Shown here: piece by piece, positions 12,810 through 19,400 of the stretch
Layout: each line of letters begins with the position of its first letter
Numbering within the stretch: position 1 is the stretch's first letter
NCBI GenBank assembly: GCA_947170265.1
Contig: CAMVSV010000006.1
Coordinates: 27,061 to 91,060 of the forward strand
Source: an uncultured Prevotella sp.
Lineage (GTDB): Bacteria; Bacteroidota; Bacteroidia; Bacteroidales; Bacteroidaceae
Length of the DNA: 64,000 nucleotides
Reading direction: 5' to 3'
The notes under the pieces: generated by a model
Seen by the model: the letters and a program-made list of their open reading frames with translations, nothing else
Databases searched by the model: none
Told to the model about the DNA's origin: nothing
Made by a program: the position numbers and the translations under genes

Positions 12810-13604
12810 TCACCGTTTTATCTCGATGTCGCGACGCACATTGTCGCGTATCTTCTTCAGATAGCCCTTCATGCCCTCAGCGTCCTTGTTGTCGATGATT
12901 TCAAGCAGCTCCTTGAGCTCTGTGCGTATCTGCGACACCTGGTCGTGGGTATATGGGTTGAAGAGTATTTCCTGAAGGAGATAGTCGTCTTCGTTGAGCA
13001 CACCCTTGGCTATTCGCATGTGACGCTTGAAAGTTGTACCCGGTGCGTCCTGATGCTTCATTACCGCAGCAAACACGAAGGTCGACACGAAAGGTATCGA
13101 CAGCGAGTAAGCCACGGTCTTGTCATGCTCCTCAAAGGAATACTCGTAAATGTTGAGTCCGAGGCGGCTGTAGAGGTCTTTGAAGAAAATCCGTCCCATG
13201 TAGTCGCCCTCGGTGATGATGATAGCATTTTCCTCTGAGAGCTGGTTGAGGTTGGCAAAAGTGGGACCGAACATCGGGTGAGTGGAGACGAAAGGTCGTC
13301 CTGTCTGCTCATACCACTCCTTCAGTCCTGTCTTCACCGATGCAATATCGCTTATTATGCACTCCTTTGGCAGGTAAGGGAGCATCTCCTCAAATGCCGA
13401 GATGGTGTATTTCACCGTGACGGCATTAATCACGAGTTCAGGTCGGAACTCCTTCACCTCCTCAAACTTCTGGAAGCGCTGACAGTTGTAGGTGAACCTG
13501 AGGCGGCGTGGGTCTTTCTCAAACACCGCCACCTCGTGGTCAAAGCTTAGCAGGTCGATGAAGAAGCTTCCCATCTTGCCTGCTCCCATTATAAGTATTC
13601 TCAT
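12810..13604 (-). CDS. tyrA: Prephenate dehydrogenase
   Basis: MRILIMGAGKMGSFFIDLLSF Rossmann start; DIASVKTGL, STHPMFGPTFANL; in an aromatic amino acid operon. Confidence 0.87.
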   Translation of the reverse strand: MRILIMGAGKMGSFFIDLLSFDHEVAVFEKDPRRLRFTYNCQRFQKFEEVKEFRPELVINAVTVKYTISAFEEMLPYLPKECIISDIASVKTGLKEWYEQTGRPFVSTHPMFGPTFANLNQLSEENAIIITEGDYMGRIFFKDLYSRLGLNIYEYSFEEHDKTVAYSLSIPFVSTFVFAAVMKHQDAPGTTFKRHMRIAKGVLNEDDYLLQEILFNPYTHDQVSQIRTELKELLEIIDNKDAEGMKGYLKKIRDNVRRDIEIKR

Positions 13605-13679: not shown

Positions 13680-14744
13680 CTATTTATTTATGATGTCGAG
13701 CTGCTGGCGCACACTCTCCTTGTGTATCACCTCAAAAATGCTCTTCACGCTCTCAGCAGAGATGCCGCAGAGTGCTCCTTGTGCCCCGCGCTTGTCGAGT
13801 ATCTCGCTGTAGCGGCTGGTCTGCAGCACGGTCATGTTGTTTTCTTTCTTGTACTGACCAATCTCACGGCATACACGCATACGCTTGGCAAGCATGTTCA
13901 TCAGCTCATTGTCAATCTCGTCGATCTGCTTTCTGAGGTTCTGTATGCCTTCCACGGTGCTGGCATGATCGCGAATGACAAGCAGCGAGAGTATGTAGTC
14001 GAGCACTTCAGGTGTTACCTGCTGCTTGGCATCGCTCCAAGCCTCGTCGGGAGAGCAGTGACTCTCTACTATCAAGCCTTCGAAGCCAAGGTCCATGGCC
14101 TGCTGGCACAGCGGGGCAATGAGTTCGCGACGCCCACCGATATGGCTTGGGTCGTTGATGATAGGAAGGTTTGGTATGCGTCGTTTCAGCTCAATGGGTA
14201 TCTGCCACATGGGCAGGTTGCGATATATTTTCTTGTCGAAGCTTGAGAAACCGCGATGGATGGCTCCAAGACGCTTGATGCCAGCCTGGTTGATGCGCTC
14301 AAGGGCTCCTATCCACAATTCAAGGTCGGGGTTTACTGGGTTTTTCACGAGCACCGGCACGTCAACACCTTTCAAAGAGTCGGCGAGAGCCTGCATGGCA
14401 AAGGGGTTCGCCGAGGTACGCGCGCCAATCCACAGAATGTCGACATCGTATTTCAGGGCAAGTTCCACATGCTCGGGAGTAGCTACTTCGGTAGACACGA
14501 GCATTCCTGTCTCCTTCTTCACGCGCTGGAGCCATGGCAGTGCTTTCTCTCCGTTGCCTTCGAAGCCTCCGGGCTTGGTGCGTGGCTTCCACACTCCAGC
14601 CCTGAAGTTGTGGCATCCTTTCATGGCGAGCTGCTGGGCTGTCTCCATCACTTGTTCTTCTGTCTCTGCTGAGCACGGTCCAGCTATAACTATTGGTCGT
14701 TGGTTGTCGCTGGGAATGTTGAGGGGTTCTAATTCAAGTTCCAT
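13680..14744 (-). CDS. Bifunctional 3-deoxy-7-phosphoheptulonate synthase / chorismate mutase
   Basis: IAGPCSAETEEQVMETA...FRAGVWKPRTKPGGFEG, NDPSHIGGRRELI; C-terminal chorismate mutase helix LRKQIDEIDNELMNMLAKRMRVCREIGQYK. Confidence 0.94.
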   Translation of the reverse strand: MELELEPLNIPSDNQRPIVIAGPCSAETEEQVMETAQQLAMKGCHNFRAGVWKPRTKPGGFEGNGEKALPWLQRVKKETGMLVSTEVATPEHVELALKYDVDILWIGARTSANPFAMQALADSLKGVDVPVLVKNPVNPDLELWIGALERINQAGIKRLGAIHRGFSSFDKKIYRNLPMWQIPIELKRRIPNLPIINDPSHIGGRRELIAPLCQQAMDLGFEGLIVESHCSPDEAWSDAKQQVTPEVLDYILSLLVIRDHASTVEGIQNLRKQIDEIDNELMNMLAKRMRVCREIGQYKKENNMTVLQTSRYSEILDKRGAQGALCGISAESVKSIFEVIHKESVRQQLDIINK

Positions 14745-14817: not shown

Positions 14818-15993
14818 TCATTGCTGAAACACAGCCTTTATTCTGTCGAGGGCTTCCTCTATCTTTTCTTTCTTTGCACAGAGTGAGATGCGTATGTATC
14901 GGCTGCCGTTGGTGCCGAAGATAAATCCCGGGGTTATGAACACCCGTGCCTCATGGAGCACCCGTTCGGTGAGTTGCTCCACATTGTCGTAGCTCTCTGG
15001 GATTTTTCCCCATAGAAACATTCCCACCTGTTGAGGGTCATAGGTGCAGTTGAGCGTCCTCATTATTTCCTCTGCCACGTTGCGGCGCTCGCGATAGGTC
15101 TGGATGTTGGCTTGCCTGTGCCACTCTTCATCGTTGGTGGTGAGAGCCTCGGCGGCAGCAAGCTGCAGTCCGCGGAAAGTACCGGAGTCAATGTTTGACT
15201 TCACTTTCATTATCCACGAGATGAATGTGGGGTTGGTGATACACATTCCCACGCGCCATCCCGGCATGTTGTGACTCTTCGACATTGAGTTGAACTCTAT
15301 GCAGCAGTCCTTGGCACCTTCAATCTGCATTATCGAGAGTCGCTCCTCATTCAGTATGAACGAATAGGGATTGTCGTTGACCACCACAATGGAGTGTTTC
15401 CTTGCAAAGTCCACGAGTTTCTGATAGGTGCTGCGCTGTGCTGCACCACCCGTGGGCATGTTGGGATAGTTTGTCCACATGAGTTTCACCCTACTCAGAT
15501 CCATCTTCTCCAAGGCTTCAAAGTCGGGTTGCCATGAGTTGTCCTCCCTGAGGTCGTAGTTCACAACCTCTGCTCCGAGCAGCGTGGATAGTGAAGTGTA
15601 GGTGGGATAGCCGGGGTTGGGCACGAGCACCTGGTCGCCGGGGTTCACAAAGGCGAGCGTCACATGGAGTATGCCCTCCTTCGAGCCGATGAGCGGCAGC
15701 ACCTCTTGGTTGCCGTCAATGTCTACTCCATACCATTTCTTGTAGAAGGCTGCCATGGCATGACGCAGCTCTGGCGTTCCCATGGTGGGCTGGTAGCCGT
15801 GGGCATCAGGCATGGCTGCCACTTCGCAGAGTTTCTTCACCGTTTGTGGCGAAGGTGGCATGTCGGGGCTTCCTATGGCGAGGCTTATGATGTCGAGTCC
15901 TTCGCTGTTGAGCTTTGCCACTTCTTTCAGTTTGCGTGAGAAATAGTATTCCTGCACGTTGTCAAGGCGGTTTGCCGGTCTAACATTCTTCAT
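14818..15993 (-). CDS. Class I/II PLP-dependent aminotransferase
   Basis: LAIGSPDMPPSPQTV, NPGYPTYTSLSTLLGAEVV, NDNPYSFIL, SMSKSHNMPGWRVG; start overlaps pheA stop by 14 nt. Confidence 0.92.
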   Translation of the reverse strand: MKNVRPANRLDNVQEYYFSRKLKEVAKLNSEGLDIISLAIGSPDMPPSPQTVKKLCEVAAMPDAHGYQPTMGTPELRHAMAAFYKKWYGVDIDGNQEVLPLIGSKEGILHVTLAFVNPGDQVLVPNPGYPTYTSLSTLLGAEVVNYDLREDNSWQPDFEALEKMDLSRVKLMWTNYPNMPTGGAAQRSTYQKLVDFARKHSIVVVNDNPYSFILNEERLSIMQIEGAKDCCIEFNSMSKSHNMPGWRVGMCITNPTFISWIMKVKSNIDSGTFRGLQLAAAEALTTNDEEWHRQANIQTYRERRNVAEEIMRTLNCTYDPQQVGMFLWGKIPESYDNVEQLTERVLHEARVFITPGFIFGTNGSRYIRISLCAKKEKIEEALDRIKAVFQQ

Positions 15994-16810
15994 ATTCTCC
16001 TAATATTTTCAGTTCCTTGGTAAGTGGTGTTATGGCATCTACCGACTGGCGGTAGCGTGTGATATTGTCGTAGGTCACGTCTACATAGAACATATACTCC
16101 CACTCTTGTCCGATGATGGGCAGCGACTGTATCTTGGTGAGGTTGATATTGTAGAACGAGAGTATGGTAAGCACCTTGGAAAGCGAGCCTTCCTCATGGG
16201 GCAGCGAGAACACGAGGCTTGCCTTGTTGGCTTTCTCTATCGTGCGCAGGAAGTCGGCTTTCTGCGGTGCCGATGCCACGAGGAAGCGTGTGAAGTTGTG
16301 CTTGTTGTCTTCAATGCTGTTTTCAAGCACCTTCAGTCCATAGTATCTGGCAGCGTCGGCACTGCAAATGGCAGCCCATCCTCGACATTGGTGCTCGGCG
16401 ATGTACTGTGCCGAGCCGGCGGTGTCTTCCGCCTCTACGGCTTTGAGCTCCGGATGGTTGGCAAGGAAGCCTCTGCACTGCATGAGTGCGACAGGATGGG
16501 AATGCACCTCCCTGACGGTGTCCCAGCTGTCTGACGGCAGGCAGCATATACAGTGCTCTATGTGGAGCTTGTGCTCACCCACCACTGTCGTTCCCGACTG
16601 TGTGAGCAGCTCATAGTTGTGGAGCAGTGAGCCTGCTATGGTGTTTTCTATTGCCGTCATGGCAAGCACCGTCGGGTCTCTCTTTACGTTTTCGAACACC
16701 TGCTCAAAGGTACTGCAACAGATGAGCTGTATCTGTTCGCCCTTGAAATACTGGTGTGCTGCGATGTCGTGGAACGACCCTATCTCTCCTTGTATTGCTA
16801 TTCTCTTCAT
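15980..16810 (-). CDS. pheA: Prephenate dehydratase
   Basis: MKRIAIQGEIGSFHDIAAHQYF..., C-terminal ACT domain (KASLVFSLPHEEGSLSKVLTILSFYNINLTKIQSLPI); start moved to 16810 from the ORF-track start at 16867. Confidence 0.94.
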   Translation of the reverse strand: MKRIAIQGEIGSFHDIAAHQYFKGEQIQLICCSTFEQVFENVKRDPTVLAMTAIENTIAGSLLHNYELLTQSGTTVVGEHKLHIEHCICCLPSDSWDTVREVHSHPVALMQCRGFLANHPELKAVEAEDTAGSAQYIAEHQCRGWAAICSADAARYYGLKVLENSIEDNKHNFTRFLVASAPQKADFLRTIEKANKASLVFSLPHEEGSLSKVLTILSFYNINLTKIQSLPIIGQEWEYMFYVDVTYDNITRYRQSVDAITPLTKELKILGEYEEC

Positions 16811-16815
16811 TGCTG

Positions 16816-16856
16816 TAAAAAAATAAACCCCGCTGCACTCTATGTGAAGCGGGGTT
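16816..16856 (-). terminator. Attenuator terminator hairpin between the leader peptide and pheA
   Basis: Minus strand AACCCCGCTTCAC-ATAGA-GTGCAGCGGGGTT followed by TATTTTTTTAC, ending 6 nt before the pheA ATG. Confidence 0.88.
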
Positions 16857-16902
16857 GTTAGTTTCATACCTTATTATTATTATGCGCACCGACCCGCTTC
16901 AC
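16844..16902 (-). promoter_or_regulatory. Alternative antiterminator structure of the pheA attenuator
   Basis: Minus-strand GTGAAGCGGGT (16892-16902, inside the leader ORF) is complementary to CCCGCTTCAC (in 16844-16856), the 5' arm of the terminator. Confidence 0.82.
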
Positions 16903-16957
16903 AGTTTCCTGCAAAGTAAAAATAAAAGCCGTAAAAGTACGCAAAATTGATATTCAT
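16880..16957 (-). CDS. Phe/Tyr-rich leader peptide of the aromatic amino acid operon
   Basis: ATG at 16957 to TAA at 16880: MNINFAYFYGFYFYFAGNCEAGRCA; 9 of residues 5-15 are Phe or Tyr; upstream of the hairpins and downstream of a canonical promoter. Confidence 0.88.
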   Translation of the reverse strand: MNINFAYFYGFYFYFAGNCEAGRCA

Positions 16958-16984
16958 TTGTCAGTTTATTTATGATTTCGAGTG

Positions 16985-17016
16985 CAAAAGTAAAACATTT
17001 CCACAAACTGCACAAA
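16985..17016 (-). promoter_or_regulatory. Promoter for the leader/pheA operon
   Basis: Minus strand TTTG (17013-17016), 20 nt, TACTTTTG (16985-16992). Confidence 0.75.
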
Positions 17017-17099: not shown

Positions 17100-19400
17100 A
17101 TGCATACCATGTTAAAGGATATAATAAACGGCATCATTGCAACCCTTATTGCCACTACCATGCAAGCACAGACACTCGTGATAAACGAGGTGATGACTGC
17201 CAACATCGACATGTTTCTGAGTCCATCAACCAATTTTGACGGGTGGATAGAGCTGTATAATCCCACTTCCAAGGCTATAGACATAAATGGATACTATGTG
17301 AGCGACGATGCCTCAGACCTGAAGAAATGGCAATACCCCCATTCGCTCACTATAGCACCCAAGGGCTTTGCCACATTGTGGTTCGACCATTATGAAGACC
17401 TTGACACCCAAGTGCCCTTCAAGCTTGACAACGGCGGAGGCTCCATATTCGTGAGCAATGGCACAGGAACAGTCGTTGCACGAGCCGACTACCCGCAGTG
17501 CATCTCCCGCACCAGCTATGCACGGACAGCCGACAACGGCGACACATGGGGCATGACTGCCGAGCCTACACCCGGTAGGACGAACCAGACCTCTACATTC
17601 GCTACCGAGCAACTCGCCATACCCTACATTGACAAACCATCGCAGATGCTTGGCAGCAAGAGCGTGAGACTTAGCGTTGACATTCCAGAGGGAACAACGC
17701 TGCGCTACACCACCGACGGCACGACACCAACGATGAGCAACGGCATGACCAGCAGCGACGGCAGGTTCTCCATCGGGGAAACCACAGCCTTCCGTTTCCG
17801 CCTGTTCAAGAAAGGAATGCTTCCCAGCAAGCCTGTCACCCGCACCTTCATAAAGCCCGGCATGGAGCACACACTGCCCGTGGTAGCGGTGGTATGCGAC
17901 GACAACTACCTCTACGACGACGAGATAGGAGTGATGGTCAAGGGCACCAACGGCAAGAGCGGCAATGGTCAGGACGAACCCTGCAACTGGAACATGGAAT
18001 GGGAGCGTCCGGTGAGTTTCACATTGTTCAACACCGACGGCTCGGAAGCCTTCTCTCAAGACACATGGCTGGAGCTGTCGGGAGGCTGGAGCCGCGCCTA
18101 CGAGCCCCACTCCTTCAAGCTCAAGGCCAACAAAGTGTTCGGCACGAAGAAGTCCATGGAATATGCTTTCTTTGCCGACAAACCCATAAAGAAATATAAA
18201 AGCATACTCATGCGCAACGGTGGAGGCGATACCTCCAGCCGCATACTCGATGCCGCACTACAGACCATAGCCATGCGTTCGGGAATAGACCTTGACATGC
18301 AAAGCTACATGCCCACCGTGCACTATATCAACGGAGTGTATAAAGGACTGATAAACATGCGCGAACCCTCCAACAAGCATTATGTATGGGCAAACTACGG
18401 ATGGGATGACGACGAGATTGACTTTCTGGAAATGAATGGCAGCCTCGTGCCGGAATTCAAATGCGGCGACAGCAAGGCGTTTGACCAATGGCTGCAACTG
18501 TCGGACAATGCTGAGGACAACGACACCTACCACGCCATCTCAGACTTGGCAGACATAGACGAATACATAAACTACATGGCACTGGAGCTTTTTCTTGGCA
18601 ACAACGACTGGATGAGAAACAACATAAAAATGTTCCGCCACCGCAACAACGGCAAATACAGAACCATACTCTTCGACCTTGACGCCGCCCTGAAAGCCTC
18701 CTACCCTTTTGCAAAGATTGAAGAAGCCTGTAAGGATAACAATCCGCAGGGCAGGCTTTTCGTCAACATGCTCAGGAACGACAGCTTCCGCCGGCAGTTC
18801 ATCGACACCTACTGCCTCATGGCAGGCAGCATATACCGTTACGACAGAGCTGCGAAGATTGCCGATGAGCTCGCCAAGAATGTGGAATCAACACTTGCCG
18901 TGGAAAATCTCTCTGCATGGACAAAGATCAAATTCCTCAAGAAATACCTCGCATCGTTCATCACCAACATGGAAGGAAACATAAGGAAATTCGCACCCAT
19001 GCAACTCACAGACACCGAAGCCATGACTGTAAGCCTCAACAGCAACACCCGTCACTCAGAGCTGAGACTCAACGGAATAGCCATACCCTACAACGACTTC
19101 AGCGGAAAGCTCTTCCCACCAGCCACCGTCACGGCGACACCCACCGACGACTATATATTCGAGTGCTGGAAAGTAGCCGACAGTGATATGGTCTACTCCA
19201 CCGATGCAGAGATTGTTCTCCCACTGGAAGGCATACAGCTCACCGCCATCTTCCACAGAGACCCCTCAGGCATAAGAACCCTGCAACGCGAAGAGCCTGC
19301 CCACAAAGGCTTGTACGACCTTCAGGGCAGACCCATACCACAATCACCCGTCAAGGGAGTTTATATCAGAGATGGCAAGAAAGTGGTTGTGAACAAGTAG
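17100..19400 (+). CDS. CotH kinase family protein with lamin-tail and chitobiase-like domains
   Basis: LVINEVMTANIDMFLSPSTNFDGWIELYNPTSKAIDINGYYVSDD is LTD-like; LRYTTDGTTPTMSNG; CotH-like KSILMRNGG...; YRTILFDLDAAL. Confidence 0.83.
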   Translation: MHTMLKDIINGIIATLIATTMQAQTLVINEVMTANIDMFLSPSTNFDGWIELYNPTSKAIDINGYYVSDDASDLKKWQYPHSLTIAPKGFATLWFDHYEDLDTQVPFKLDNGGGSIFVSNGTGTVVARADYPQCISRTSYARTADNGDTWGMTAEPTPGRTNQTSTFATEQLAIPYIDKPSQMLGSKSVRLSVDIPEGTTLRYTTDGTTPTMSNGMTSSDGRFSIGETTAFRFRLFKKGMLPSKPVTRTFIKPGMEHTLPVVAVVCDDNYLYDDEIGVMVKGTNGKSGNGQDEPCNWNMEWERPVSFTLFNTDGSEAFSQDTWLELSGGWSRAYEPHSFKLKANKVFGTKKSMEYAFFADKPIKKYKSILMRNGGGDTSSRILDAALQTIAMRSGIDLDMQSYMPTVHYINGVYKGLINMREPSNKHYVWANYGWDDDEIDFLEMNGSLVPEFKCGDSKAFDQWLQLSDNAEDNDTYHAISDLADIDEYINYMALELFLGNNDWMRNNIKMFRHRNNGKYRTILFDLDAALKASYPFAKIEEACKDNNPQGRLFVNMLRNDSFRRQFIDTYCLMAGSIYRYDRAAKIADELAKNVESTLAVENLSAWTKIKFLKKYLASFITNMEGNIRKFAPMQLTDTEAMTVSLNSNTRHSELRLNGIAIPYNDFSGKLFPPATVTATPTDDYIFECWKVADSDMVYSTDAEIVLPLEGIQLTAIFHRDPSGIRTLQREEPAHKGLYDLQGRPIPQSPVKGVYIRDGKKVVVNK

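Follow-up and report, generated by a model that had tools for sequence, protein, structure and literature searches.

A candidate ribosome-mediated Phe/Tyr transcription attenuator upstream of pheA in Prevotella and its conservation in related Bacteroidales

Introduction

What sets the expression of the genes for phenylalanine and tyrosine biosynthesis in an uncultured Prevotella sp., and what does the short, strikingly aromatic reading frame that precedes pheA contribute? Ribosome-mediated attenuation requires the leading ribosome to keep pace with RNA polymerase. The promoters and ribosome-binding signals of Bacteroidota are unlike those of Escherichia coli and, to our knowledge, few studies have addressed coupling in this group. 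Here, a stretch of 64,000 nucleotides containing this locus (hereafter, the window) was analyzed together with the corresponding regions of related genomes. On the basis of sequence comparison and modeling, it is very probable that a ribosome-mediated transcription attenuator sets expression of the pheA-aminotransferase-DAHPS/CM-tyrA genes according to how much charged tRNA-Phe and tRNA-Tyr is available.

Results and Discussion

Organization of the pheA locus

Examination of the minus strand of the window revealed, in order, TTTG, a gap of 20 nt, TACTTTTG, an ORF of 25 codons, a hairpin with a T-tract (16856-16817), and pheA. The features of this region are as follows:

17013-17016, minus strand: -33-like promoter element TTTG, 20 nt from the -7 element
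16985-16992, minus strand: -7-like promoter element TACTTTTG (TAnnTTTG)
16880-16957, minus strand: leader peptide ORF, 25 codons, MNINFAYFYGFYFYFAGNCEAGRCA, with a counterpart in 79 of 80 Prevotella-type loci
16913-16945, minus strand: control codons 5-15 (five Phe, four Tyr)
15980-16810, minus strand: pheA, encoding prephenate dehydratase with a weak ACT match, start ATG at 16810
14818-15993, minus strand: class I/II aminotransferase
13680-14744, minus strand: DAHP synthase fused to chorismate mutase
12810-13604, minus strand: tyrA-like prephenate dehydrogenase

A preliminary description of this DNA had recognized a Bacteroidetes promoter here, and both TTTG and TACTTTTG were indeed found at that place on the minus strand. 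The 20-nt spacing between the two elements is the commonest among leaders of the host's family, and TAnnTTTG was found upstream in 85 of 87 unique family leaders, as compared to 6.0 in shuffles. Transcription would start just upstream of the leader. The 25-residue leader, with nine Phe/Tyr among residues 5-15, was likewise confirmed on the minus strand; no clear Shine-Dalgarno sequence is visible for this leader.

In the window, about 70 nt separate the leader stop from the pheA ATG (16810), and 6 nt separate that ATG from the end of the T-tract. Given that the genes comprise pheA, an aminotransferase, DAHPS/CM, and tyrA, the operon serves the synthesis of Phe as well as that of Tyr. The gene upstream of the leader (17100-19400) is divergently oriented, such that the terminator before pheA cannot end a transcript coming from upstream. 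An in-frame ATG is also present at 16867 (minus strand), within the leader region, from which pheA would gain 19 codons, reading through the terminator; automatic annotation may pick this wrong pheA start.

The full architecture was defined as an ORF in which 7 or more of 12 residues are aromatic, a terminator of -10 kcal/mol or better, and a matching complementary segment, which had to sit just after the last aromatic codon. Among 636 tiles covering both strands of the window, only the pheA leader showed this architecture; of 1590 control tiles taken at other loci, none did. When further aromatic leaders were sought in the genome, 30 of 74 matches to a run of five Phe/Tyr codons were inspected and, of these, only the pheA leader was distinctive by its ORF.

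Mutually exclusive hairpins in the leader RNA

The RNA segments considered below, all read from the minus strand, are:

16909-16916, minus strand: segment 1, 5' arm of the 1:2 hairpin, CUUUGCAG
16897-16904, minus strand: 3' arm of the 1:2 hairpin, CUGUGAAG
16893-16902, minus strand: segment 2, 5' strand of the antiterminator, GUGAAGCGGG, within the leader ORF
16844-16853, minus strand: segment 3, CCCGCUUCAC, partner of segment 2 (antiterminator) or of segment 4 (terminator)
16826-16856, minus strand: intrinsic terminator hairpin (segments 3:4), -19.3 kcal/mol
16817-16825, minus strand: T-rich tail of the terminator, TATTTTTTT
16885-16895, minus strand: pause-like sequence GGGUCGGUGC/G, with G-10 at 16895, the 3' end at C16886, and +1 at G16885

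The terminator hairpin and T-run described earlier as lying 6 nt before pheA were recovered (16856-16826, -19.3 kcal/mol), as was a complement of the terminator 5' arm within the leader, with GTGAAGCGGG (16902-16893) matching CCCGCTTCAC (16853-16844) perfectly over 10 nt. Because the 10 bp 2:3 pairing uses the terminator arm, antiterminator and terminator are mutually exclusive, both by sequence and on folding, as had been proposed. Folding of the ribosome-free RNA revealed an additional hairpin that the preliminary description does not include, namely, CUUUGCAG-GAAA-CUGUGAAG (1:2; 16916-16897). Segment 1 of this hairpin (CUUUGCAG) comprises the 3' part of the final Tyr codon, the final Phe codon, an Ala codon, and a G. 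With its addition, the predicted structures complete a full four-segment design.

The computed energies are about -15 to -17 kcal/mol for 2:3 alone, -19.3 kcal/mol for 3:4, and about -8.7 kcal/mol for 1:2. Equilibrium folding of the ribosome-free RNA favors the terminator (P about 0.96), such that antitermination relies on timing, as in known attenuators.

A proposed switch

In the mechanism proposed, the last Tyr and Phe codons would pair with the antiterminator segment to form the 1:2 hairpin, and RNA polymerase would probably wait about 11 nt past this hairpin until the leading ribosome comes. As to the direction of the response, we infer that scarcity would favor expression: were Phe or Tyr scarce, the ribosome would stall at the control codons, the 1:2 hairpin would be opened, and segment 2 would be left free, in which case 2:3 would form and transcription would continue into pheA. 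Were Phe and Tyr both ample, the ribosome would cover segment 2, 3:4 would form, and transcription would stop before pheA. In the absence of translation, 1:2 and 3:4 would form, rendering the switch off by default.

That stalling frees the leader-internal segment and that completion of translation masks it, as the preliminary description had it, was reproduced in a model of ribosome masking. With the A-site on any of codons 5-15, segment 2 lies outside the ribosome over its full ten nucleotides; eight of these remain outside at codon 16, five at codon 17, and two at codon 18, after which none do, the segment thus being hidden by codon 19. The ORF is so long in 22 of the 127 unique leaders that the ribosome, on reaching the stop, would have passed segment 2 entirely. 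In such cases, termination would require 1:2 to re-form behind the ribosome. Stops lying far downstream were noted in L087-L090, L108, L114, L129, and others.

Distribution of the leader among relatives

A single PheA scan of the species-genome collection provided a set of 80 Prevotella-type loci, in 77 of which an aromatic leader lies at most 350 nt from pheA. In two others (L041 and L024), such a leader is found farther upstream of pheA, bringing the total to 79 of 80; it was not found in L025, the one exception. In L024, the terminator and pheA are set apart by short repeats, rich in GC, that span about 300 nt.

Aromatic leaders were also detected in 47 of 52 regions from the family, a sample spanning nearly all of its sampled genera; of the five leaderless regions, four encode a PheA that is divergent (about 30% identity). 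Among 72 additional regions of the family, set aside as a hold-out, an aromatic leader is present in 66; 64 of these passed the full set of criteria given above, and all 66 are followed by a hairpin and T-tract. Here, four of the six leaderless regions are again of the divergent PheA type. Family members encoding such a divergent PheA (about 30% identity) with no aromatic leader before it include L131-L134 and L370-L373.

Beyond the family, a sample of the order yielded leaders reaching 7 of 12 aromatic residues or more in 24 of 27 usable loci, with the remaining three at 6 of 12. Leaders were identified in most of the loci from other orders of the class (L164, L166-L179, L181, and L186), while outside the class, they were seen in two loci (L165 and L180) and not in ten others (L182-L185 and L187-L192). 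A deep sample of the class showed a patchy distribution, with leaders in 7 of 18 new loci.

The candidate attenuator is common to most relatives in the order and not peculiar to the host genome. The comparison of orthologous regions that the preliminary description had suggested gave the reverse of the outcome that would count against attenuation, with leader, terminator, and matching antiterminator segment being conserved and co-varying.

A pause-like sequence at a preferred distance from the control codons

The pause-like sequence of the window, which also goes beyond the preliminary description, lies 11 nt past the 1:2 hairpin and 27 nt past the last control codon. Its G-10, C-1, and G+1 agree with the consensus pause. 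The consensus elemental pause is conserved among diverse bacterial polymerases and is lengthened by pause hairpins (PMC6336406). The idea of a hairpin-independent pause, entertained when the 1:2 hairpin had yet to be seen, was dropped upon folding of the ribosome-free RNA.

Among leaders, the motif T-R-Y-G was found a few nucleotides past segment 2 in 42 of 70 cases, as compared to 10.0 in shuffled sequences, and its distance to the 1:2 hairpin (3' arm) is mainly 11 or 13 nt. T-R-Y-G could, however, be no pause but a side effect of the codons chosen or of some other signal, a reading that touches this one step and not the attenuator itself. The motif was, after all, spotted by eye before being counted, and in the deep class sample it was in range in only 2 of 7 leaders, limiting the claim to the family and its near relatives. 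On the other hand, T-R-Y-G is kept in those loci where the stretch is non-coding (16 of 21, as compared to 3.4 shuffled). Moreover, a prediction fixed before the hold-out was examined, namely T-R-Y-G with Y positioned 25-30 nt past the last aromatic codon, was borne out in 29 of 35 hold-out leaders (at most 80% identity; drawn from the same family and thus phylogenetically dependent), as compared to 4.1 in shuffled sequences (maximum, 10 in 500). Together with the preferred spacing from the 1:2 hairpin, these results speak against a side effect, a reading that we consider rather unlikely, although it retains some weight.

In considering hisG leaders as a test of the motif, none was found in the host genome (L260) or in L254, the two family members examined, and the hisG leaders of other Bacteroidales are diverse, offering few and mixed examples for this purpose. 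A His-rich leader ORF and terminator were nonetheless noted before hisG in several Bacteroidales families (L257, L265-L268, L271, L273, L274, L276, L280, and L282).

Proposed joint sensing of Phe and Tyr

The attenuator could also sense mainly one amino acid, or a general slowing of translation, rather than Phe and Tyr jointly. Since the 1:2 hairpin uses the last control codons, it may stay closed when the ribosome stalls at the first of the aromatic codons; masking and folding suggest that stalls at codons 5-11 would keep 1:2 intact and that perhaps only codons 12-15 (Tyr-Phe-Tyr-Phe) count, these then being what may be the effective control codons. Still, both amino acids are represented in the last three control codons of most family leaders, mostly as Phe-Tyr-Phe, and the operon serves both products. 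Sensing of a single amino acid or of slowed translation thus appears improbable, and joint Phe/Tyr sensing, as judged from sequence, would fit both the switch-proximal control codons and the contents of the operon.

Selection on RNA rather than on the leader peptide

To the 3' side of the aromatic codons, the GUGAAGCGGG-like segment is translated as CEAG in Prevotella or as VKRE in Bacteroides-like genera, and elsewhere lies 3' of the leader stop. Among 118 anchored unique loci, segment 2 falls in the three reading frames in 44, 39, and 8 cases, and after the leader stop in 27. Being kept across all three frames and past the stop, the segment is selected as RNA and not as peptide. In the family, segment 2 starts at a median of 11-12 nt past the last aromatic codon, matching where the front edge of the ribosome would be.

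Variants of the segment and of the terminator arm change together across loci (GAGCGGGA, ACGGGATT, GACCGGGA, GGCAGGA, CGAGGCTT, and others). Complementarity between segments 2 and 3 of the same locus exceeds that with permuted partners, with z = 17.5 for 76 loci, relatedness being partly controlled. With one locus per GTDB family (24 loci), z = 9.5 was obtained and 0 of 20000 permutations reached this value, again with relatedness partly controlled.

The 1:2 hairpin is predicted in 85 of 87 unique family leaders. In 48 distinct Prevotella-type sequences, pairing is seen in 383 of 384 cells (99.7%), with the one freely varying pair being G-C in 23, A-U in 21, and C-G, G-U, and U-G in one each; the covariation score exceeds those of all 500 shuffles and of all slid versions. 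In other genera, the register of the hairpin shifts (e.g., UUUUACUUU-AGCAAC-AAAGUGAAG), with the hairpin itself being kept. Codon usage shows the same constraint. At the second-last control codon, TAC appears 58 times and TAT 0 times, as compared to 110:88 for earlier Tyr codons; at the last control codon, TTT appears 58 times and TTC once, as compared to 142:49 for earlier Phe codons. Codons are so chosen at these two positions because they form the arm of the 1:2 hairpin.

These observations bear on two readings other than transcription attenuation. Were the leader a functional small aromatic peptide, with the terminator only trimming read-through, the strong conservation of the aromatic core would be explained; however, the C-terminal part is frame-shifted or truncated by stops among loci that keep the nucleotide segment, it is codon choice and not the amino acids alone that is fixed, and segment 2 co-varies with the terminator arm, rendering this reading highly implausible. 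Equally remote is a role for the leader not in transcription but in translation, through coupling or through reinitiation at pheA, given that, despite the proximity of the leader to pheA in the window genome, the leader-pheA distance varies widely (e.g., -461 relative to pheA in L024), a hairpin and T-tract follow 66 of 66 hold-out leaders, and segment 2 co-varies with the 5' arm of that hairpin.

Relation to known attenuators

The preliminary description had likened the logic of transcription attenuation at this locus to that of enterobacterial pheA. In agreement, the same script that was used here finds E. coli K-12 pheL with a matching layout. As in E. coli pheL-pheA (Rfam RF01859, Phe_leader), a short aromatic leader precedes pheA, the terminator is mutually exclusive with the alternative pairing, and segment 2 directly follows the last control codon, at a distance of 8 nt in the case of E. 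coli. In pheL, moreover, T-R-Y-G is present as TGTG and ends 27 nt past the last control codon, a distance equal to that in the window. By contrast, pheL contains Phe codons but no Tyr codons, and E. coli pheA is not in an operon with tyrA; in the window, segment 2 is found inside the ORF, the promoter is of a different type, and a clear Shine-Dalgarno sequence is lacking. The RF01859 covariance model scored 23.5 bits over the full model against a cut-off of 55 (E = 0.059 in 231 nt), and no Rfam match at the curated cut-off was obtained for the window leader.

Likeness to the E. coli his and trp leaders extends to control codons in segment 1, a 1:2 hairpin, the choice between 2:3 and 3:4, and a pause-like site past segment 2, the last being read in the window from sequence alone. 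In hisL (GGCGATGTGTG), T-R-Y-G, which we take to be the mapped his pause, ends 26 nt past the last His codon, the corresponding distance in the window being 27 nt. Unlike the window leader, the his and trp leaders serve other amino acids and genes. In the four-segment model, control codons are in segment I, a pause occurs past segment II, and II:III competes with III:IV, while without translation, I:II forms along with III:IV (PMC1183508). The mechanism suggested for the window matches this model region by region.

Within the class, the available part of a report on the Flavobacterium psychrophilum transcriptome describes strong clues to leader-peptide attenuation before amino-acid operons, as well as a structured element before pheA that is common within Flavobacteriaceae (PMC9723704). 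This element belongs to the same class and precedes the same gene as that considered here; leader sequence, 1:2 hairpin, pause site, and Phe/Tyr sensing are not given in that part of the report (PMC9723704). In Bacteroides thetaiotaomicron, a transcriptome map mentions sORFs resembling leader peptides (PMC7366714). Both attenuation ahead of amino-acid operons in flavobacteria and a structured element preceding pheA had, as such, already been suggested in 2021; the kind of regulator is known and its lineage was partly hinted at. Bacteroidetes cases may also be listed in a comparative survey from 2010 (Lopatovskaya and co-workers). As far as the literature shows, what is new here is the proposed dual Phe/Tyr control, the codon-level constraint imposed by 1:2, the spacing rule, and tandem copies.

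Coupling and tandem attenuators

It seems somewhat more likely than not that most sampled Bacteroidales, together with many other Bacteroidia, use a joint Phe/Tyr attenuator in which the last control codons double as an arm of the pause hairpin and polymerase pauses at ribosome-contact distance, with some lineages stacking two such attenuators with segments that do not cross-pair. The attenuator predicts close coupling between ribosome and RNA polymerase in these bacteria and, if the above holds, tight transcription-translation coupling would be an old and general trait. Being conserved and comprising a ribosome ruler and a pause-like site, it could serve, in bacteria that are abundant in the gut, as a ready reporter of coupling, of pausing, and of the sensing of charged tRNA. 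With it, a further regulatory RNA is recognized ahead of pheA in much of the order, and none of the Rfam models reports this RNA at cut-off.

Two complete attenuators are arranged in tandem before pheA in L136 and L139, which belong to different GTDB families. The segment/terminator scores of the copies, each with its own partner, are 22 and 23 in L136 and 24 and 18 in L139, as compared to cross-scores of 10-13. According to the available part of a report on Salmonella mgtCBR, two leader ORFs are likewise found there in one leader region, although mgtCBR is a Mg2+ transport and virulence operon and that part describes no duplicated aromatic attenuator (PMC3641672). A similar, if weaker, tandem appearance was noted in L163, L166, L174, and L151.
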